Part shown: positions 11,352-21,572 of the stretch, one piece after another
Position numbering within the stretch: position 1 is the stretch's first letter
Layout of the letters: the number at the start of each line of letters is the position of its first letter
Source: an uncultured Phycisphaerales bacterium
GTDB taxonomy: Bacteria; Planctomycetota; Phycisphaerae; Sedimentisphaerales; Anaerohalosphaeraceae
DNA: 64,000 bases
NCBI GenBank assembly: GCA_937868095.1
Contig: CALMLO010000032.1
Span: 1 to 64,000 of the forward strand
Reading direction: 5' to 3'
The notes under the pieces: model-generated
Seen by the model: the letters and a program-made list of their open reading frames with translations, nothing else
What the model was told of the DNA's origin: nothing
Databases searched by the model: none
Program-made: the position numbers and the translations under genes

Positions 11352-12401
11352 TCAGCTGCGTGCGAACTGGATGAGTGCGGCGGAGATTTTTTCGAGGGGG
11401 ACAATCGCTTCCGCGGCGTTGAGCCGGATGGCTTCCCTGGGCATTCCGAAGACGACGCAGGTGGCTTCATCCTGTGCGATGGTGTGTGCGCCGGCTTCTT
11501 TGAGGGCCAGGAGTCCTTTGGCGCCGTCGTTGCCCATGCCGGTGAGAATGGCTCCGACGGCATTGGCGCCGGCGTATTTGGCGACGGAGTTGAAGAGGAC
11601 TTCGACGCTGGGTTTCTGGTGGCAGACGGCGGGGCCGTCTTTGATTGCGACGTAATAACTGGCTCCGGAGCGCTGGAGGACCATGTGATAGCCGCCGGGT
11701 GCGATGAGGACCCGTCCGGGGATGATGTGGTCGCCGTCGGCGGCTTCTTTGACCTGTACGGCACAGGTCTCATTGAGCCGTTCGGCAAAGGAGCGGGTGA
11801 ATTGTGCCGGCATGTGCTGGACGACGAGGGTTCCCGGTGAATCGGCCGGCAGAGAGGAGAGGACACAGGTAAGGGCCTGCACGCCTCCGGTGGATGCTCC
11901 GATGGCGATGATTTTGTGGGTTGTTTCGAGCAGATGGGCGGATTCGGCGGGTGCCGCCGGTGCTGCCGGTGCGCTGACGGGTTTTGGGAAAGACCCTTTG
12001 GGAATGGCCAGAATGGTCTGGCAGAGCTGTTTGCAGGCATCTCCGACGCTGTAGGAGGGGCCTGGTTTGGCCAGCACTTCTACGGCGCCTGAGGCAAGGG
12101 CTTCGACGGCGGTTTTGCTTCCCTGGGGGGTCAGGGAGCTGAAGATGATGACGGGCATGGGATGATATTTCATCAGTTTTTTCAGGAATGTGACGCCGTC
12201 CATTCGGGGCATTTCGACATCGAGAATCAGCACATCGGGATTAAGAGTTACGATTTTGTCGCGTGCGATGTAGGGGTCTGGTGCTGTGGCGATGACCTCG
12301 ATGGAGGGGTGGGCATCGAGCTGTTTGCTGAGAATCTTGCGAACGATGGCGGAGTCGTCCACGATGAGCACTTTGGTTGTTTTCTGTTCGGCTGCGAGCA
12401 T
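11352..12401 (-). CDS. cheB: Chemotaxis protein-glutamate methylesterase/deamidase CheB
   Basis: 349 residues. The receiver domain (about 8-125) has the acidic pair in VLIVDDSA and the phospho-acceptor D61 in LILDVEMP. The methylesterase domain (about 162-347) has the triad S170 (GASTGG), H196 (VVQHMP) and D292 (GMGNDGAKG). CheB-P removes methyl groups from receptors, giving adaptation opposite to CheR. The start at 12401 has AAGGAGA about seven bases upstream; the longer open frame upstream overlaps cheD and is not family-like. It is the last chemotaxis gene of the operon, 17 bp after cheD. Confidence 0.95.
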   Translation of the reverse strand: MLAAEQKTTKVLIVDDSAIVRKILSKQLDAHPSIEVIATAPDPYIARDKIVTLNPDVLILDVEMPRMDGVTFLKKLMKYHPMPVIIFSSLTPQGSKTAVEALASGAVEVLAKPGPSYSVGDACKQLCQTILAIPKGSFPKPVSAPAAPAAPAESAHLLETTHKIIAIGASTGGVQALTCVLSSLPADSPGTLVVQHMPAQFTRSFAERLNETCAVQVKEAADGDHIIPGRVLIAPGGYHMVLQRSGASYYVAIKDGPAVCHQKPSVEVLFNSVAKYAGANAVGAILTGMGNDGAKGLLALKEAGAHTIAQDEATCVVFGMPREAIRLNAAEAIVPLEKISAALIQFARS

Positions 12402-12417: not shown

Positions 12418-12921
12418 TCAGAGGACCTTTTCCACTCCGCCGGTTTTGACGATGGCGGTTCCGTCCCCCAAATAGAGGTAAAAGTTTCGCGGCTGGTCAC
12501 CGCCGACATCGTGGCCTTTGAGGAGAAGTCCGTGCTTCCAGAGGACTTTTCGGAGGGCGAGGAAATTGCGTTTTCCGATGTCAAATCCCTGGGGTCCGGT
12601 TTTCATGGCGGCTCCGCCGGCGACTTTGACTATCATTCTGTATTTGTCTGCTCCGTATCGGATTAGATTGGCTAATAGTGTCTCCATTCCGGTATCGCAG
12701 AACATAAAGGGTTCTGTCTGTGCGCGGATGGGGTCCATGGAAGATTCCGGCAGCTGATAATGAATCATGCCTCCGATGGTGACCGCCGGGTCATAGACGG
12801 CAACGGCCAGGCAGGAGCCGAGAGAATAGGTGACCAGAACAGAATCCGGGTCGGAAGAAATTTTCGCGTCGGAGACCTGCACAACAACGTGATTTTTTTT
12901 CAGGGAGGTCGGCATTCTCAT
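12418..12921 (-). CDS. cheD: Chemoreceptor glutamine deamidase CheD
   Basis: 167 residues. The catalytic Cys37 lies in YSLGSCLAV and His54 in GGMIHYQLP, the papain-like pair used for receptor deamidation. Further family signatures are KVAGGAAM and the DIGKRN segment. CheD deamidates receptor glutamines and, in many bacteria, partners with CheC to tune adaptation, which fits the CheC/CheX-type genes in this operon. The start codon overlaps the cheR stop (ATGA), indicating translational coupling. Confidence 0.95.
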   Translation of the reverse strand: MRMPTSLKKNHVVVQVSDAKISSDPDSVLVTYSLGSCLAVAVYDPAVTIGGMIHYQLPESSMDPIRAQTEPFMFCDTGMETLLANLIRYGADKYRMIVKVAGGAAMKTGPQGFDIGKRNFLALRKVLWKHGLLLKGHDVGGDQPRNFYLYLGDGTAIVKTGGVEKVL

Positions 12922-13772
12922 TTCCTGTAGATTGTCGGCTGGATGTATCGGAACGAATGGCGGATTCCTGTGAGCGATTCGGAATGGCCCGTAAAGAAAA
13001 GGCCTCCGTTGTCGAGTACGTCGTGGAATCTCTGGACAAGTTTTTCCTGAGTGGGCTTGTCGAAATAAATCATCACATTTCGGCAGAAGATAAAATCGAA
13101 TGGGCCTCGGAAGGGCCAAGGGTCCATGAGATTGAGGTATTTGAAAATAAGGATGCTGCGAAGGGCCGGGCTGACCTCGTAGAGGAGAGGAGTGGATTTG
13201 TCCTTTTTGGGTTTGAGATAGCGGCTCTTGAGTTCGGCGGAGAGGTTGGCGACCCGCTGCGGTTCATAAAGTCCTTCCTGGGCAATTCGGAGGATTCGTG
13301 TGGAGATATCGGATGCGAGGATTCGGATATCCCAGGATTGGGCAAGCGGGACGGCCTCGAGGAGGGTGATGGCGATGGAGTAGGGCTCTTCACCGGACGA
13401 ACAGCCGGCACTCCAGGCGCGGATGCGGAGTTGGCCGGTTTTCTGTTTTTTCTGAATTAAAGCAGGGAGGAATTGGCGTCGAAGGTATTCGAAATGTTTG
13501 GGTTCGCGGAAGAAACTGGTGAGGTTGGTGCTGATTTGGTCAATCATTTCGTAGAAGGTGGTCTGGGTGGGGTCGTCGAGAACGAAGTCGATGTACTGGT
13601 CATAGGTTTTGAAACGATATTTTCGAAGCATTTTGGCCAGGCGGGCGCGGACGAGTTCTTTTTTGCCCTCGTGAAGATTGATGCCGCAGTGCTCATAGAC
13701 CAGCCGGCAGATGCGCACGAACTGTTCATCGGTGAGGACGGGCTGCTCAATCTGGAGGGTTGGGAATTGCAT
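12918..13772 (-). CDS. cheR: Chemotaxis protein methyltransferase CheR
   Basis: 284 residues. The N-terminal helical CheR-N domain (about 12-75) is followed by the SAM-binding methyltransferase domain (about 80-280), with SFFREPKHFEYL, AWSAGCSSGEEPYSIA and FIFCRNVMIYFDKPTQ motifs. It methylates receptor glutamates using S-adenosylmethionine. TAGGAACGACT precedes the ATG. There are 8 bp between the cheA stop and this start, and the 3' end overlaps cheD, so the adaptation enzymes R, D and B form a tightly coupled set. Another enzyme of the same family is not in the window. Confidence 0.96.
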   Translation of the reverse strand: MQFPTLQIEQPVLTDEQFVRICRLVYEHCGINLHEGKKELVRARLAKMLRKYRFKTYDQYIDFVLDDPTQTTFYEMIDQISTNLTSFFREPKHFEYLRRQFLPALIQKKQKTGQLRIRAWSAGCSSGEEPYSIAITLLEAVPLAQSWDIRILASDISTRILRIAQEGLYEPQRVANLSAELKSRYLKPKKDKSTPLLYEVSPALRSILIFKYLNLMDPWPFRGPFDFIFCRNVMIYFDKPTQEKLVQRFHDVLDNGGLFFTGHSESLTGIRHSFRYIQPTIYRK

Positions 13773-13780
13773 AGTCGTTC

Positions 13781-15877
13781 CTATAGATAAGCGGCGGGGT
13801 CCTGTGCCAGTTCTATCAGGCCGGGTACATCGAGAATCAGACTGATGCGTCCGTCGCCCATGATGGCGCCGCCGGAGACCCCTTTGATTTTGCCTAATCC
13901 TCGAAGGGATTTGATGACGACCTGCTGCTGTCCGATGAGGTCATCGACCTGGAGGCAGCAGCGTTTGCTTCCTTCGCCGACAACGACGAGAAGGGCCTGG
14001 TCGGGCTCCTGGACGGCTCCGGCGATGCCGAACAGTTTGTAAAGCGGAATCAAAGGATGAAGTTGTCCGCGGATTATCACGACCTGGGAGTGATTCTGAA
14101 TGGTGGAAATCTGGTCTGGTGCGGGGCGCAGACTTTGGATGACGGCGTTGATGGGGATGATATATCGCTGGGAGCCGATGGTGATAATCTGTCCGTCGAT
14201 GATGGCGAGTGTCAAGGGCAGCCGGATTGAAATCTGGGTGCCCTTGTCGGGGGCGGAGCGGATTTCGATTTTTCCATTGAGGGATTCGATGTTTTTCTTG
14301 ACGACGTCCATTCCGACGCCCCTGCCGGAGATGTCAGTGACCTGGTCGGCGGTGGAGAAGCCCGGACGGAAAATCAATCCGAAGATTTCCTCTTCGCTGA
14401 GTTCCTGGTGTTCGGAAACAAGTCCTTTTTCGACGGCTTTTTTACGGATTTTTTCGCGGTTGAGGCCGCGGCCGTCGTCTTCGATTTCGATGACGATGCT
14501 GCCGGCCTGATGATAGGCGGCCAGTCGAATGCGTCCCTGGGGATTTTTCCCTTTCTGCGTCCGCTCCTGGGGGCTTTCAATTCCGTGGTCGATTGAGTTG
14601 CGGAGCATGTGGATAAGGGGGTCGGTGATTTTGTCCACGATGGTGCGGTCTAATTCCGTTTCTTCTCCGGCGGTCTGGAAGATGACGGGTTTGGCGGCTT
14701 TTTGAGATAAATCGCGGACCAGACGGGCCATTTTCTGGAACGCTCCCTGGATAGGAATCATCCGCATGGCCATGGAGAGTTCCTGGAGTTCGCGGACGAT
14801 TTTGGACTGGCCGGCGACTTTGCGGAAGAGGTCGCTGTCGGTGTGGCAGGTTTTGCTTACTTCTTCGGAAATCATCAGTTGGGCGACGGCCAGTTCGCCG
14901 GTCATATTGATCAAATCGTCGAGCCGTTTGGTGCTTACTTTGATGGTCTGGCGTGCGGCTCCGGCGGCGTCGGCGGAAACAGAGGCGGCCGGGGCGGTTC
15001 GGGCTGATGATTCGGGCTGGAGAATCGGTTCCAGTTTGACATCCTGCCGGACATCGGGCAGGGGTTCTTGTGTTTCAGGCGGGGTCTTGCCTTCGGCGCA
15101 GTCCTGGATGCGGCGGATGAGGTCTGTCAGGTCCGTCGGCGGAAGAACGGGCGTATTCTGGGTCAGTCCGGTCTGGAGGTCTTTGAGCATTGTTTTGAGC
15201 ATATCAATGGCTGCAAAGGCCAAATTGCCGGCAAGGCCGACCATGGTGAGGGTTCCTTTTCTGGCACGATCGAGCAGATTTTCTGCGACGTGGGCCAGGC
15301 GGTTTACGGCTGTGAGGTTCAGGAAGCCCGCCATTCCCTTGATGGTGTGGAATCCGCGGAAGATTTGGTTGAGGGTTTCTGTGCTGGTTGGGTCGCTTTC
15401 GAGCGTCAGCAGTGCGCTTTCCGCCGATTCGATATGTTCGCGGGATTCATTGATGAAGTCCTGAACGAGGGGTGCATCTTCCTGGACGATGGTGATGGGC
15501 TGAAACTCGTCGGCCGGAGCGGGGGTCGGCGTTGAGGCCGGGGCTGGGGCCGCTGTCGGTGTCGGGGCAGATTGGAAAAGGGACTGAGAAAGAGTTTGGA
15601 GGCGGCTGACGGCCTGGGTGAGTTCTTCGAGGATGCGGTCGGAGTTTTCTGTGTCGGCCTGGAGGAGTTTTTCAATCTGTTCGGCGCCGAGATGGGCGAG
15701 GGTTTCGCCCTGCAGGCGGCCGGCTTCTTCACAGCCGCTGAGCTCTTTGATGGCGGACTCGATTTGTTTGAAGACCTGGGCAATTTCCTGAAGGTCTTTG
15801 CTGTCCTGGGGGTCCAGGAGGGGGATTTTGCCGGCGGCCTGTTCAATCAGTTCTGTAAGATTTAAATTTTTATCCAT
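13781..15877 (-). CDS. cheA: Chemotaxis sensor histidine kinase CheA
   Basis: 698 residues. The HPt domain with the phospho-His177 (FRGFHTIKGMAGFL) lies at about 134-240, not at the N terminus. It is preceded by about 100 residues of acidic helical sequence and a Pro/Ala linker, an uncommon extension. A P3 dimerisation domain follows (STKRLDDLINMTGELAVAQ), then HATPase (LRNSIDHGIE, EDDGRGLN, GRGVGMDVVK) and a C-terminal CheW-like P5 domain. I do not see a clear separate P2 CheY-binding domain. The start at 15877 (MDKNLNLTELIEQ) is chosen over a longer frame that overlaps the upstream gene out of family character. Confidence 0.96.
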   Translation of the reverse strand: MDKNLNLTELIEQAAGKIPLLDPQDSKDLQEIAQVFKQIESAIKELSGCEEAGRLQGETLAHLGAEQIEKLLQADTENSDRILEELTQAVSRLQTLSQSLFQSAPTPTAAPAPASTPTPAPADEFQPITIVQEDAPLVQDFINESREHIESAESALLTLESDPTSTETLNQIFRGFHTIKGMAGFLNLTAVNRLAHVAENLLDRARKGTLTMVGLAGNLAFAAIDMLKTMLKDLQTGLTQNTPVLPPTDLTDLIRRIQDCAEGKTPPETQEPLPDVRQDVKLEPILQPESSARTAPAASVSADAAGAARQTIKVSTKRLDDLINMTGELAVAQLMISEEVSKTCHTDSDLFRKVAGQSKIVRELQELSMAMRMIPIQGAFQKMARLVRDLSQKAAKPVIFQTAGEETELDRTIVDKITDPLIHMLRNSIDHGIESPQERTQKGKNPQGRIRLAAYHQAGSIVIEIEDDGRGLNREKIRKKAVEKGLVSEHQELSEEEIFGLIFRPGFSTADQVTDISGRGVGMDVVKKNIESLNGKIEIRSAPDKGTQISIRLPLTLAIIDGQIITIGSQRYIIPINAVIQSLRPAPDQISTIQNHSQVVIIRGQLHPLIPLYKLFGIAGAVQEPDQALLVVVGEGSKRCCLQVDDLIGQQQVVIKSLRGLGKIKGVSGGAIMGDGRISLILDVPGLIELAQDPAAYL

Positions 15878-15899: not shown

Positions 15900-17210
15900 T
15901 CAGTCCGTTTTTTGGCTCTGCGTGTCGGCGGTTGGGGCAGCGGCGGTCGGCTGAAGCAGGGCATGAAAGATTTCCATAACGGTAATCAATCCGATCACGC
16001 TGCCGGCGGCATCCTGAACAGGCAGTGCCCGAATCTGATAGCGGTACATTGTGTCCATTACCTTCCAGAGCGGCGTGTCCGGTGTTATTGTTCGGACGGG
16101 GCGGCTCATAAACCATTTGATGCGAATCTGGAGCGAAGCATCGTCCAGCGGTCTGCGGTATTCTTCGAACGGGGTTCTTAAGTAGGGGCTGATGGCGGCA
16201 TTGATGTCTGACTGGGAGAGGATGCCGACCATCTGATCTTTTTCTTCAATGAGTGCGTATCGGGCGGCGTTCTGCCGCATTCGCTGGAGTGCCGTTTCGA
16301 CGGAGTCGTTGGGGGAAAGCCAGAGGGGCTTGGTATTCATAATGATTTGAGCAGGGCAGTTGAGGATAGCGACATCGAGCGGAGCGGCGGCCGGCTGAGA
16401 GTGTACGAGCTGCTGAATGGCGTTCCAGACCGGCTGCTGGTCGGCGGTGTTTGTCTGGGGAGCGTCTGCGGTCTGGGAGGGAGCAGGCGGCGTGTCTTGC
16501 GGAGCGGGCTGTGTGTCTTGTGCAGCGGGCTGCGGCTGGGCAGACTGGTCGGCGGGCTGCTCCTGCGGCTGGTCTGGAGTCGGCTGGGGCTGGTCGGCTT
16601 GCGGTTCTTCTTTGGGCGGTTCGAAAAGGGCTGCCGGAAAGATAGCGGCGGCGTGGAACGGCGGATAATCGCCGACGGTCATCTCCCATACCGTCAGCAG
16701 GCACAGGCCGTCGGCGGGGATTGGGAAGACTTCGGCGGGCTTTTCCCAGGGGTTGGTGATTTGGGTATTGGTCTGGAGCAGGTGCTTGTGGCCGGGCAGG
16801 TGTTCGCGGTATACGCGATCCCAGGCGCCGACAATCAGATTGCCGATTTCTTTGACGGTATCGGTTAACTTGACGGCTGCTTCGAGGGTGCCCTGTTTGC
16901 ATTGTTCCTTGATTTTGTCTTCGGGGAGCAGAACGAAGAGGCCGGCGAGCAGAAACAAGGCGGTTTTGTCGATGATGAGGTCAAACCGTCCGGATAAAAC
17001 TCCTTCTGACTGGACAGAATAGACGGCGGCGAGTTTCTGGAAAAAGGGCTTCAGTTTGTCTGGTGAAGCCGCTCCTGCCTGACAGAGGGCACATCCGATT
17101 GAAATTCCGAGCATTCCATTGATGTCTTCACAGAATGTCTGCATGGCGATGGTACTCGCCTGGGGCAGCTGAGTTTCGAGCGGAATGCTTTGGGCGGTTT
17201 GCGCTGTCAT
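15900..17210 (-). CDS. CheC/CheX-like domain fused to tandem CBS domains
   Basis: 436 residues from the ATG at 17210. Residues about 15-195 resemble the CheC/CheX/FliY phosphatase fold: TDTVKEIGNLIVGAW carries the E121-x2-N124 pattern used by CheY-P phosphatases. Residues about 200-262 are a Pro/Gln/Asp-rich linker. Residues about 285-420 form a CBS pair (PLWLSPNDSVETALQRM and RTITPDTPLWKVMDTMYR). CBS pairs often bind adenine nucleotides, so this could link phosphatase activity or localisation to energy state (inference). It lies between cheX and cheA on the same strand, 22 bp from the cheA start. I know of no standard Che protein with this build. Only one ExxN motif is visible, so it could also be an inactive adaptor. 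Confidence 0.75.
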   Translation of the reverse strand: MTAQTAQSIPLETQLPQASTIAMQTFCEDINGMLGISIGCALCQAGAASPDKLKPFFQKLAAVYSVQSEGVLSGRFDLIIDKTALFLLAGLFVLLPEDKIKEQCKQGTLEAAVKLTDTVKEIGNLIVGAWDRVYREHLPGHKHLLQTNTQITNPWEKPAEVFPIPADGLCLLTVWEMTVGDYPPFHAAAIFPAALFEPPKEEPQADQPQPTPDQPQEQPADQSAQPQPAAQDTQPAPQDTPPAPSQTADAPQTNTADQQPVWNAIQQLVHSQPAAAPLDVAILNCPAQIIMNTKPLWLSPNDSVETALQRMRQNAARYALIEEKDQMVGILSQSDINAAISPYLRTPFEEYRRPLDDASLQIRIKWFMSRPVRTITPDTPLWKVMDTMYRYQIRALPVQDAAGSVIGLITVMEIFHALLQPTAAAPTADTQSQKTD

Positions 17211-17236: not shown

Positions 17237-17713
17237 CTAATCTTTTTTGCGATAAAGGAGCGTAAAGACGGCGGTATATTCCTCGTTCAGACAGACTGGG
17301 ACGGCGACTTTTTCGGTTCCTTCGCCGAGGGAGCTGCTTAATTCTCTGCCGGAGATGACTGTTGGGATGGAAACGGCGATATCCGGGCAGGCGTCCTGGA
17401 GGCGGTGTTTGATGCTGCCCATGACCATGTTGGCGACTTCCCCTACGGCGTCGCAGACTTCCTGGTCGGAGACGGGGGAGTCGGGGTCGAGGGCCAGCAT
17501 GTTTCGTGCGATTGTCTTGGCGCAGGAGTCGGCGAGGGAGATGCCTAAGCATCCTTCCATATCCCCTTTGAAGGTGATTGTGCCCAGCAGGGAATGAGCC
17601 GTCCAATCGACGGCAGTCTCGGCGGCGGGTTCGATTTCCATGAAAATCATGGTTTCGAAGACTTCTTTGGCGGCGTCCAGTACGGTTTCGTGATAGGTTT
17701 TCTGTTCAATCAT
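17237..17713 (-). CDS. cheX: CheY-P phosphatase CheX
   Basis: 158 residues, the usual CheX size. The signature DAVGEVANMVMGSIK contains E92 and N95, which attack the phospho-aspartyl bond of CheY-P with water. GITF and LGISLAD strands match the CheX/CheC fold. It removes phosphate from CheY, replacing CheZ, which is absent here. It lies 31 bp after cheY and 26 bp before the CheC-like/CBS gene. GGGACATTCC precedes the ATG. Confidence 0.88.
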   Translation of the reverse strand: MIEQKTYHETVLDAAKEVFETMIFMEIEPAAETAVDWTAHSLLGTITFKGDMEGCLGISLADSCAKTIARNMLALDPDSPVSDQEVCDAVGEVANMVMGSIKHRLQDACPDIAVSIPTVISGRELSSSLGEGTEKVAVPVCLNEEYTAVFTLLYRKKD

Positions 17714-17744: not shown

Positions 17745-18119
17745 TCAACTCATAAAAGGAGCGAGTTTTTCCTGGAACCTTTCGGGGGTGAAGGGTTTGG
17801 TGATATAGCCGTTGGCGCCGTCGGCCAAAATGCTGTCGATGAGCTCCTGTGAGCTTTCTGTGGAGACCATAATAATCTTGGTATCCTTGCAGTTTGGGAG
17901 CTGTCGCGCCTGCTTGACCATTTCCGTGCCGGACATTTCGGGCATGTTGATGTCGCAGAGGACGATATCGACGGGCGCTGTTTTGAGTTTTTCGATGGCC
18001 TCGACGCCATTGCCAGCTTCTTCGGTGCGGTCAAACTCGAGGCCGGACATGCGGACGGTACGCATAATGATTTTTCGCATGGTAGCGGAGTCATCGACAA
18101 TCATTAACGATTTCGGCAT
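17745..18119 (-). CDS. cheY: Chemotaxis response regulator CheY
   Basis: 124 residues, a single receiver domain. Acidic pocket residues are in MIVDDSATMRK (D9, D10), the phospho-acceptor is D56 in VLCDINMPEM, the switch Thr/Ser is in IIMVSTESS and the lysine is in GYITKPF. CheA phosphorylates it and it would act on the flagellar switch. The ATG at 18119 is preceded by AAGGAG; the longer open frame begins inside the mcp gene's 3' end. It lies 10 bp from the mcp stop. Confidence 0.95.
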   Translation of the reverse strand: MPKSLMIVDDSATMRKIIMRTVRMSGLEFDRTEEAGNGVEAIEKLKTAPVDIVLCDINMPEMSGTEMVKQARQLPNCKDTKIIMVSTESSQELIDSILADGANGYITKPFTPERFQEKLAPFMS

Positions 18120-18129
18120 GGGATACTCC

Positions 18130-20271
18130 TTATTTTCTGGCTGTCTGCTGTTTGTTTTTATCGAGAGAACGTTTTTCCGCCGGAGCATGCGGAGCAGGCT
18201 GCTGCGGCGCTGTCTGTGTGTCCCCTGCGATTTGATGATAAATCTGACTGGACAAGGGGAGGTTTGCTGCCGGTGTTTGTTTCATCGGGCCGGCCTGGTT
18301 TTGCGAGGCGTCCTGTCCGCGGATGATGGTTTGCAATTGGACAGCAACCTGCTTCATTGCCTGGGCCTGCAAAGCGAGTTCCTCGGCGGCGCTGGCGGAC
18401 TGTTCGGCCCCGGCGGCATTCTGCTGGGTAATTTTGTCCATCTGTGAAACAGCAGAATTAATCTGGTCGATGCCCTGGGCCTGTTCTTTGCAGGCCGCTG
18501 CAATTTCGTCCGCCAGTGCAGAGGTTTTGCTGATTCCGCTGACGATTTGGTCGAGAGCGGTTTTGACCTCCTGAGAAATCTGGACGCCGTTGTTGGCGTT
18601 TTTTACGGACAGTTCGATCAGTTCTGCTGTTTTTCCGGCGGCTTCTGCGGAGCGGATGGCAAGGTTTCGGACTTCCTCGGCTACGACGGCAAACCCTTTG
18701 CCTGCCTGGCCTGCTCGAGCGGCTTCTACAGCGGCATTGAGGGCCAGCAGATTGGTCTGGAATGCGATTTCATCAATGACTTTGATGATTTTGTCGGTTT
18801 GTTCCGAGCTTTTGTGGATTTCCTGAATGGCCTGCATCATTTTCTGCATGGCCTCTGCTCCGGTGTCGGCGGCCTGTCTGGCGCCGGCTGCGAGGGAAGC
18901 GGCCTGGGCTGCGTTGTCGGCGTTCTGCTTGGTAGCAGCGGCGGTCTCCTCCAGACTGGAGGATGTCTCCTGGATGGCGGCGGCCTGCTCGGTTGTTCCC
19001 TGGGCGAGATTCTGCGAGGCGGCGGCGACCTGTCCGGAGGCGTCGGAAACCTGCTGAGCTCCTGTAAAAATATGTTCGGCAATGGCTATGAGCCGGCTGG
19101 TGAGTTTTTGCGATGCCAGGAACCAGATGAGCATGGCCAGCACCGTGCACACGCTTGTGAGCAAAGTGATTTGAATCATAGAAAGCCGACCGATTGAACG
19201 GATGCGATCGGATGATTCATAAAATTCGTCTAAATAGGAGCTGGCACCGACAACCCAATCCCACGGTTTGAAGTAGATGACGCGGGCGATTTTTTCACGT
19301 GGGGCCGGTTCGCCCTGGTTCTGCCAGGGGTATCGCTGTTCGATGATTTCCGCCGGGCCGGCGCTGAGTGCTTTTTGACAGATTTGCTGAATGAAGAAAT
19401 TTTCGTCGGCATCTTTGGCCTGCCAGAGATTTTCGCCGTCTCGTTTTCCGTCTTTGGAGATAATGTAGTTTCCTTTGGAGTCGAGTACGAAGACATAGCC
19501 GGTTTTGCCGATGGCCGTTTTGAGGATGGCCTGTCGGATATTGGTGCATCGTTCCTGCGGGATTCCGACATAGAGGGCGCCGATGACTTTTTTGTCGACG
19601 TCCAGAATCGGCTCGTAGGCGGTGATATACCAGCGGTCCACCACAAAGGCCCGCCCTTCATACCGTTGTCCCTGGAGGAGGGCGGAGACCACCGGATTGG
19701 GTGTGCCGTCGGGCTGGATTTTTGGGATGTATGTGCCGATGGCCCGCTTGCCGTCCTTGGTTTGGACGTTGGTGCAGACGCGGAGCATATCTCCCTGTTC
19801 ATTCATTCGCTGAAAGATGGTGCAGGTAACGCCCATGAGGTCTTTGACGGTATCGACAATGGGAGAAGCGGTATGGATGGATGTGTTGGCGCCCAGCCAT
19901 GTTTGGCCGACCATCATTTTGGGCAGAGGGAGGGTCTGGGTGCTTTGGCTGAATTGATTGACGGCCTGCCATGTGACAGGGGGCTCCTCGAGATGAACGT
20001 CTCCGGTCTGACGAAGAACTTCGCGTGCAAGCCGGAGGGATTGATTAATGTTTTCCTGAATGGAAGTTTGCTCGACTTCGAGCATGTTGTAAATATGCTG
20101 GGCGGTATGGTCGAGGTCGGCATAAGCCATTTTTGTGCTTTCCTGCTCCGCCGCCTGAACCATTCGTCGGTTCTGGAAGAGGACGATAGCGACTGTGAGC
20201 AGCAGGGGCAGCAGGGTCAGGGATAATCCCTGCATCAGCAGTTTGATTTTTAAGTTCATTTTATTGTGCAT
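18130..20271 (-). CDS. Methyl-accepting chemotaxis protein with periplasmic Cache-type sensor
   Basis: 713 residues. TM1 is at about 10-32. A large periplasmic region (about 35-350) looks like a Cache-type sensor ([58 protein letters not shown]). TM2 is at about 365-392. The cytoplasmic MCP coiled coil follows, with the highly conserved hairpin tip [22 protein letters not shown] canonical HAMP domain is not evident between TM2 and the coiled coil. The tail is Gln/Pro-rich and lacks an obvious CheR-docking pentapeptide. It detects an unknown small molecule, possibly an organic acid, and is the only receptor in the window. Confidence 0.93.
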
Positions 20272-20339: not shown

Positions 20340-20858
20340 TTAACTGGGTGTATTCTCCGATGCGGTTTCATTCAGATGAACGCCGCCGAGGACGCGGTCG
20401 ATGTCCAGCAGAATCTTGATGGATGAGCCGATCTTTCCGATGCCGAGGATAAAGTCGTTCTGTACGGCCGAGCCCAGATGAGAGGATTCTTCGATATCTT
20501 CGGCGTTGATGTCGAGGACTTCCTGGACGCGGTCCACAATGAGGCCGGCGTTGAATGTTTTTTCGTTCTGGTTGATTTCAGCAACGATGATGCAGGTCTG
20601 CTCGGTGATGTCGGCCGGCTCCATACCGAAACGAAGGCGCAGGTCTATTACGGGAATCACCTGTCCGCGAAGATTGATGACCCCCTTGACAAATGGGGGT
20701 GTGCGCGGGACGGCTGTGATGTTCATATAGCCGATAATTTCGCGTACTTTTAAGATCTCCAACCCATATTCTTCTTTGCCGAGGGCAAAGGTTAAAAACT
20801 TGCCCTCCTGGGCCGTGTTTTTTCTGGCCGCCGCCGGCGGCGTGACTGTCGTCGTCAT
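20340..20858 (-). CDS. cheW: Chemotaxis coupling protein CheW
   Basis: 172 residues. The CheW fold covers about 18-158 ([55 protein letters not shown]) with a short extra N terminus and a 15-residue acidic C-terminal tail. It couples the receptor to CheA. It is the first gene of the minus-strand chemotaxis operon, 68 bp ahead of mcp. GGAGTACGATT precedes the ATG. Confidence 0.95.
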
Positions 20859-21203: not shown

Positions 21204-21572
21204 TTATGGGTTGGCAGGTGCTGCGGCGGGCTCCAATTTTTTCCGGAGTTCGGCTATCTGCGTTTGGAGTTCCTGAATTTGCTTTTGCAATTCCTGAATC
21301 TGCTTTTCTTTTTCAGTGGATTCATTTTTGAATTTGGTGGACTTTTCCATCAAGGTGCGCGTAATTTCGAGGGCCTTCTGATTGACTTCTTCATACTTTT
21401 TCTGAAGCGAGGCCAGTTTGGTGTTTTGCTCTTCGATGGTCTTCTGAGCGGCGGTCAGTTCGTCCTGGAGGGTCTGTTTTTCATTTTGGCAGGTTACCAG
21501 TTCCGGATTGGACTTGCAGCCAAGCAGGAGAGCGGCTGCGGCCAGAGCGACACATGCAAGTACTTTTTTCAT
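21204..21572 (-). CDS. Small coiled-coil lipoprotein
   Basis: 122 residues. A lipoprotein signal with lipobox LLLGC places the lipidated cysteine at residue 19. The rest is almost entirely heptad-like helix (QNEKQTLQDELTAAQKTIEE, then KEKQIQELQKQIQELQTQ) ending in an Ala/Pro tail. It should be a membrane-anchored periplasmic coiled coil, possibly trimeric in the style of Lpp/OprI (inference). AAAGGA precedes the ATG and a strong terminator follows, so it is its own transcription unit. It has no visible link to its neighbours. Confidence 0.8.
   Translation of the reverse strand: MKKVLACVALAAAALLLGCKSNPELVTCQNEKQTLQDELTAAQKTIEEQNTKLASLQKKYEEVNQKALEITRTLMEKSTKFKNESTEKEKQIQELQKQIQELQTQIAELRKKLEPAAAPANP

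Follow-up and report, generated by a model that had tools for sequence, protein, structure and literature searches.

Accounts of energy and metabolic taxis generally invoke receptors or inputs to CheA. CBS repeats with the motif G-h-h-S/T-x-x-D/N are carried on or in regulated enzymes such as CBS-PPase, IMPDH and AMPK gamma, and to our knowledge no phosphatase of a response regulator is controlled by any of them. The closest described relatives of the protein analysed here belong to the CheC/CheX/FliY group, where an Asn positions the water for attack while an acidic residue forms a pair with the Lys of the receiver (PMC3035606). CheX (PF13690; Thermotoga maritima, Borrelia) has a single D-x3-E-x2-N signature, CheC (PF04509) of the same superfamily has two in a pseudo-symmetric protein, and FliY or CheC-FliN fusions (PDB 4hyn) end in FliN.

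In the window, the whole 64,000-nucleotide stretch of DNA that was analysed, a chemotaxis operon encodes a protein, hereafter XC, that shares the single signature and the vicinity of cheY and cheA with CheX, to which it is related at profile level, but differs in carrying a fused CBS pair while a normal cheX adjoins it. From CheC it differs in having one signature and an added CBS pair, and from FliY in ending in a CBS pair rather than FliN. The first-pass annotation knew of no such standard Che protein, and no CheX/CheC-CBS fusion was found described in a literature search that covered few subscription papers. In its own order the protein is widespread. The families that make up XC are known; their combination, the conservation of this combination across the order and the exchange of tails have, so far as this could be checked, not been described. 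We propose, with a probability of about 0.5, that XC is a second CheY-P phosphatase whose activity would be set by a CBS-bound adenosine-type ligand; we infer the activity, the ligand and the regulation alike. A variant of this reading would make XC a CheY-P/CheD-binding regulator under the same ligand control.

Gene organization and genomic context

XC is a complete gene (ATG at 17210, stop at 15900-15902) and fills exactly the interval first marked out for it. The compact minus-strand operon runs cheW-mcp-cheY-cheX-XC-cheA-cheR-cheD-cheB (Table 1). The slot between cheX and cheA that had been read from the sequence is borne out by neighbours identified with Pfam, with the end of cheX 26 bases upstream of XC and the likely cheA start (ATG at 15877) 22 bases downstream. 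The linker is rich in Pro and Gln up to residue 262, as the first-pass annotation had it, with 17 Pro and 16 Gln among the 65 residues 198-262. Among XC homologues its length ranges from 43 to 354 residues with an average composition rich in E, A and P, and this variation argues for a flexible tethering of the CBS pair.

Table 1. Features of XC and of the surrounding chemotaxis operon (positions in the window)
Feature	Position	Strand	Basis
XC gene (CheX-like domain, linker and CBS pair, 436 aa)	15900..17210	-	ORF, homology
XC N-terminal CheX/CheC-like domain, residues 1-197	16620..17210	-	homologue Pfam matches, hhalign to CheX
D117-x3-E121-x2-N124, CheC/CheX/FliY catalytic signature	16839..16862	-	homologue conservation
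XC low-complexity linker, residues 198-280	16371..16619	-	composition
XC CBS pair (Bateman module), residues 281-425	15936..16370	-	PF00571, family alignment
CBS1 ribose-phosphate motif GILSQSD, residues 329-335	16206..16226	-	motif G-h-h-S/T-x-x-D/N, PMC11172384
Order-specific signature SPYLRTPFEEYRRPLDDASLQIRIKW between CBS1 and CBS2, residues 341-366	16113..16190	-	alignment
CBS2 motif GLITVME, residues 407-413	15972..15992	-	alignment
cheW	20340..20858	-	Pfam
Methyl-accepting chemotaxis protein, Cache3-Cache2	18130..20271	-	Pfam
cheY, likely start 18119	17745..18119	-	PF00072 E 3.3e-26
cheX	17237..17713	-	PF13690 E 1.2e-19
cheA (Hpt, H-kinase_dim, HATPase, CheW), likely start 15877	13781..15877	-	Pfam
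cheR	12918..13772	-	Pfam
cheD, likely start 12915	12418..12915	-	PF03975 E 5.9e-24
cheB, likely start 12401	11352..12401	-	Pfam

The Planctomycetota assembly that carries XC measures 3.04 Mb, and the two close relatives that bear a name are MAGs, with the labels Planctomycetota and Phycisphaerae. A Pfam search of the genome found one CheX and neither CheC nor CheZ; a c-di-AMP synthase (DAC) domain is present, and FliM/FliN-type genes lie on the same contig as XC. Besides, a small coiled-coil lipoprotein gene (window 21204-21572, minus strand) just upstream of cheW recurs at the same place in the two closest named relatives with 77-79% identity and is possibly part of the che operon.

Relation of the N-terminal domain to CheX and CheC

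As a single sequence, residues 1-197 gave no match in Pfam, NCBIfam or PDB searches. When 49 homologues of the domain were scanned separately, 22 matched PF13690 CheX (best 1e-5) and eight matched PF04509 CheC weakly, and no other Pfam family was matched by more than three. The hhalign comparison of the domain profile with CheX proteins of the same loci gave E of about 1.4e-4 to 2.2e-4, which became 6.8e-6 (score 40.2) with distant homologues on both sides. The best of 100 column shuffles reached E 0.02 and score 19.6 (gappy columns were removed for the shuffles, as shuffled end gaps gave E 1e-21 over 14 columns in one of 30), and among 12 control families from the same loci nothing was comparable (top score 21.3). 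The match spans about 57 columns centred on the catalytic signature, of which the domain, about 200 residues long, has one; its positions are conserved among 50 homologues at.90 (D117),.94 (E121) and.94 (N124). The best solved structure by profile was the CheC/FliN fusion 4hyn (E 0.0037), and AlphaFold, run on three input sequences only, gave pLDDT 32-33 for whole XC and for the N-terminal domain.

Judged on these profiles, the domain is clearly CheX/CheC-like as a family, by a relation that is undetectable from the single protein. The CheC/CheX-like N-terminus claimed at the outset is thus upheld, and the profile-HMM check proposed along with it came out negative for XC alone and positive for its family. 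The domain departs from CheX in staying below the Pfam threshold and in a longer conserved, family-specific stretch after the signature, W-D-R-x-F-R-E-x-x-x-G-H-x-H.

Distribution and conservation of the fusion

The N-terminal domain was found in 66 of 148 related genomes, and across 397 genomes sampled from the class all its matches fell within the own order. The slot cheY-cheX-XC-cheA-cheR-cheD-cheB is conserved, with XC usually between cheX and cheA. By the sequences compared, the CheX-like and CBS fusion is the usual form in the order and not a one-off. Neither a chance fusion nor a gene-calling error would account for the conservation of XC in dozens of genomes and the correlated divergence of its halves (Mantel r 0.76, against at most 0.26 in 2000 permutations), and we reject both; the correlated divergence is consistent with one protein inherited as a unit.

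XC does not accompany CheX in every relative: in one family of the order (f5), CheX sits in clusters of another arrangement and XC is absent. In the relative G030, whose genome is 77% complete, cheA comes straight after cheX and the place normally taken by XC is empty (L140:1151-1772).

A strong CheX is present in 56 of the 66 XC genomes (odds ratio 33), and CheD in 53 of them (odds ratio 10). XC could be a functional CheC stand-in, whose CheX-like domain would bind CheD (and CheY-P) and control the access of CheD to receptors while CheX does the bulk of CheY-P removal and the CBS ligand biases adaptation instead of acting directly on CheY-P removal. The cheD gene in the operon and the association with CheD fit such a role, as does the finding that only two of the 148 genomes have a two-motif CheC (G048, with two PF04509 matches, and G096, both of the own order), neither of them with XC. 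However, XC carries a single active-site signature against the two of CheC, its association with CheX is the stronger, and many genomes have CheD without XC. We consider this role unlikely, while the least so of the alternatives weighed here.

Retention of the catalytic signature

D, E and N of the signature are all kept in the 51 of 51 che-linked XC copies that cover it, and the signature is altered in five of ten copies outside chemotaxis operons (four of ten counting E and N only), with L122 counted as non-che despite a nearby Hpt domain and kinase and several of the non-che copies lying near contig ends. The difference gives Fisher p 4e-5 ignoring relatedness, and is indicative only because the sequences are related. 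In genome G066, which has both kinds, the che copy (L032) is intact and the other (L051) reads S-x3-D-x2-N. Some non-che copies retain the signature, which counts against our proposal.

Full retention in che-linked copies would be superfluous for pure CheD binding and so speaks further against a CheC stand-in. It bears as well on whether XC is a decoy or sink, its E-x2-N face binding CheY-P with little hydrolysis so that the signal is buffered. A dedicated phosphatase, CheX, is already in the operon, which would leave room for a decoy, but the Asn on which activation of the water depends is kept by all che-linked copies, and we regard such a role as very improbable. Active hydrolysis by XC, the reading we prefer, may by the same token be redundant, since the operon already has cheX.

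The CBS pair

The C-terminus matches PF00571 (E 8.6e-22) in two stretches, so that the CBS pair first called there is certain as two tandem repeats. CBS1 has the canonical ribose-phosphate motif G-h-h-S/T-x-x-D/N (PMC11172384), with G in 61/61, S/T in 59/61 and D/N in 57/61 family members. In CBS2 the motif is mostly kept (G 61/61, T 59/61), with D in 43, E in 9 and N in 4 at the last position (D/N 47/61), and the own genus has E in place of the usual D/N. The CBS part, in which the first-pass annotation anticipated a ligand site, thus retains the nucleotide-site motif, and on this count the refuting outcome named there, a CBS part that does not fold as such a site, did not appear.

What sets the pair apart from those of CBS-PPase, IMPDH and AMPK gamma is the order-specific segment between the repeats, with the consensus SxYLxxxFxxWRRPxDDATLxIxxKW (A358 61/61, D356 60/61, W366 57/61), the most conserved stretch of the pair. 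The same CBS pair also stands at the end of long proteins, of low complexity or coiled-coil, that are encoded away from che loci, and in a tree of CBS pairs the majority of them are placed within the XC branch, where many forks are weak. Both observations would suit a pair that serves for oligomerisation or docking without metabolite sensing, placing the CheX-like domain at, for example, the receptor array or the motor with the inter-repeat segment as docking surface. Against this, the ribose-phosphate motif is also kept, in 57-61 of 61 members per position in CBS1 and mostly in CBS2. We find a docking function doubtful, close to the CheC stand-in in plausibility, and favour ligand sensing by the CBS pair.

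Exchange of the C-terminal tail

In the phylum sample no CBS pair of comparable score was found outside the own order. Five distant homologues of the N-terminal domain were found there in other Planctomycetota, preceded in four of five loci by a CheX-profile gene. Their tails vary. In L117 the tail is a receiver domain (PF00072 E 2.7e-23) followed by cheA; those of L115 and L116 are receiver-like (pseudo-receiver), with no Pfam match and hhalign to CheY at E 5e-5, where other controls gave at least 0.035. The XC-type N-terminus of L118 is joined to FliN (PF01052 E 2e-13), as in the FliY type of fusion, with no cheX seen nearby, and L119 has the N-terminal domain alone without a C-terminal domain. 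The varied tails imply that the CheX-like domain is the constant part and the CBS pair the own order's version, and the receiver-type tails that the tail behaves as a regulatory module. This swappable tail on one conserved domain offers a natural series for comparing how control of a phosphatase evolves.

Proposed function

XC would act beside the separate CheX in a flagellar chemotaxis pathway that has neither CheC nor CheZ. Its N-terminal domain would place E121 and N124 in the active site of the receiver and thereby position the water for hydrolysis, in the manner of CheX, while the CBS pair, tethered flexibly by its long linker, would make XC a dimer and bind its ligand, with AMP/ADP/ATP, S-adenosylmethionine (the CheR methyl donor) and c-di-AMP, whose synthase domain is present, as possible candidates. 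The ligand may raise or lower the phosphatase activity, so that motor bias would track the internal metabolic state. What the sequences establish are the identities of the domains, their conservation, the link between an intact signature and the che operon, the gene slot, and that CheC and CheZ are absent.

The proposal is favoured by the CheX relation, the 51/51 signature, the slot, the co-occurrence with CheX, the absence of CheC and CheZ and the presence of FliM/FliN, the CBS motifs, the joint divergence of the halves, the receiver-type tails elsewhere and the c-di-AMP synthase domain. Against it we count the lack of a single-protein profile match, the alignment of about 57 columns, the low pLDDT of the AlphaFold models, the E in CBS2 and the relative G030 without XC.

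On this evidence, a module for metabolite binding seems to be attached to the very step that ends the signal, encoded in the core operon and conserved across the order. If ligand control holds, a route bypassing the receptors would lead from the energy or nucleotide status of the cell to motor bias through CheY-P lifetime, and the findings suggest that steering in the own order may respond directly to the cell's internal state. More tentatively, a chemotaxis phosphatase may be gated directly by an intracellular adenosine ligand through CBS repeats, with the control domain (receiver, pseudo-receiver, FliN or CBS) swapped from lineage to lineage.

Related arrangements in the order

The long proteins ending in the CBS pair have 609-1512 aa (L034:8494-10986, L035:4435-7377, L038:2271-5063, L040:2310-5195, L043:4865-7513, L044:391-2541, L046:3278-5107 and L048:454-4992), and one of them adjoins a non-che XC that has lost the phosphatase signature. 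In larger operons of the order, cheD and cheB are separated by an additional block, which encodes another CheY, joined at some loci to a second CheX or lying next to one, as well as a small Hpt-like protein (L124:2354-3190, L039:12-863, L073:1819-2685, L069:7086-8351, L060:1144-2370). At L141:770-1999, after cheX, an XC-type CBS pair is preceded by a low-complexity repeat that replaces the CheX-like domain, and no cheA follows it on that contig. Apart from these, an Hpt domain is fused to a CBS pair in a protein of 295 aa flanked by a non-che XC on one side and a hybrid kinase on the other (L122:5109-5996), hinting at a CBS-controlled phosphorelay.
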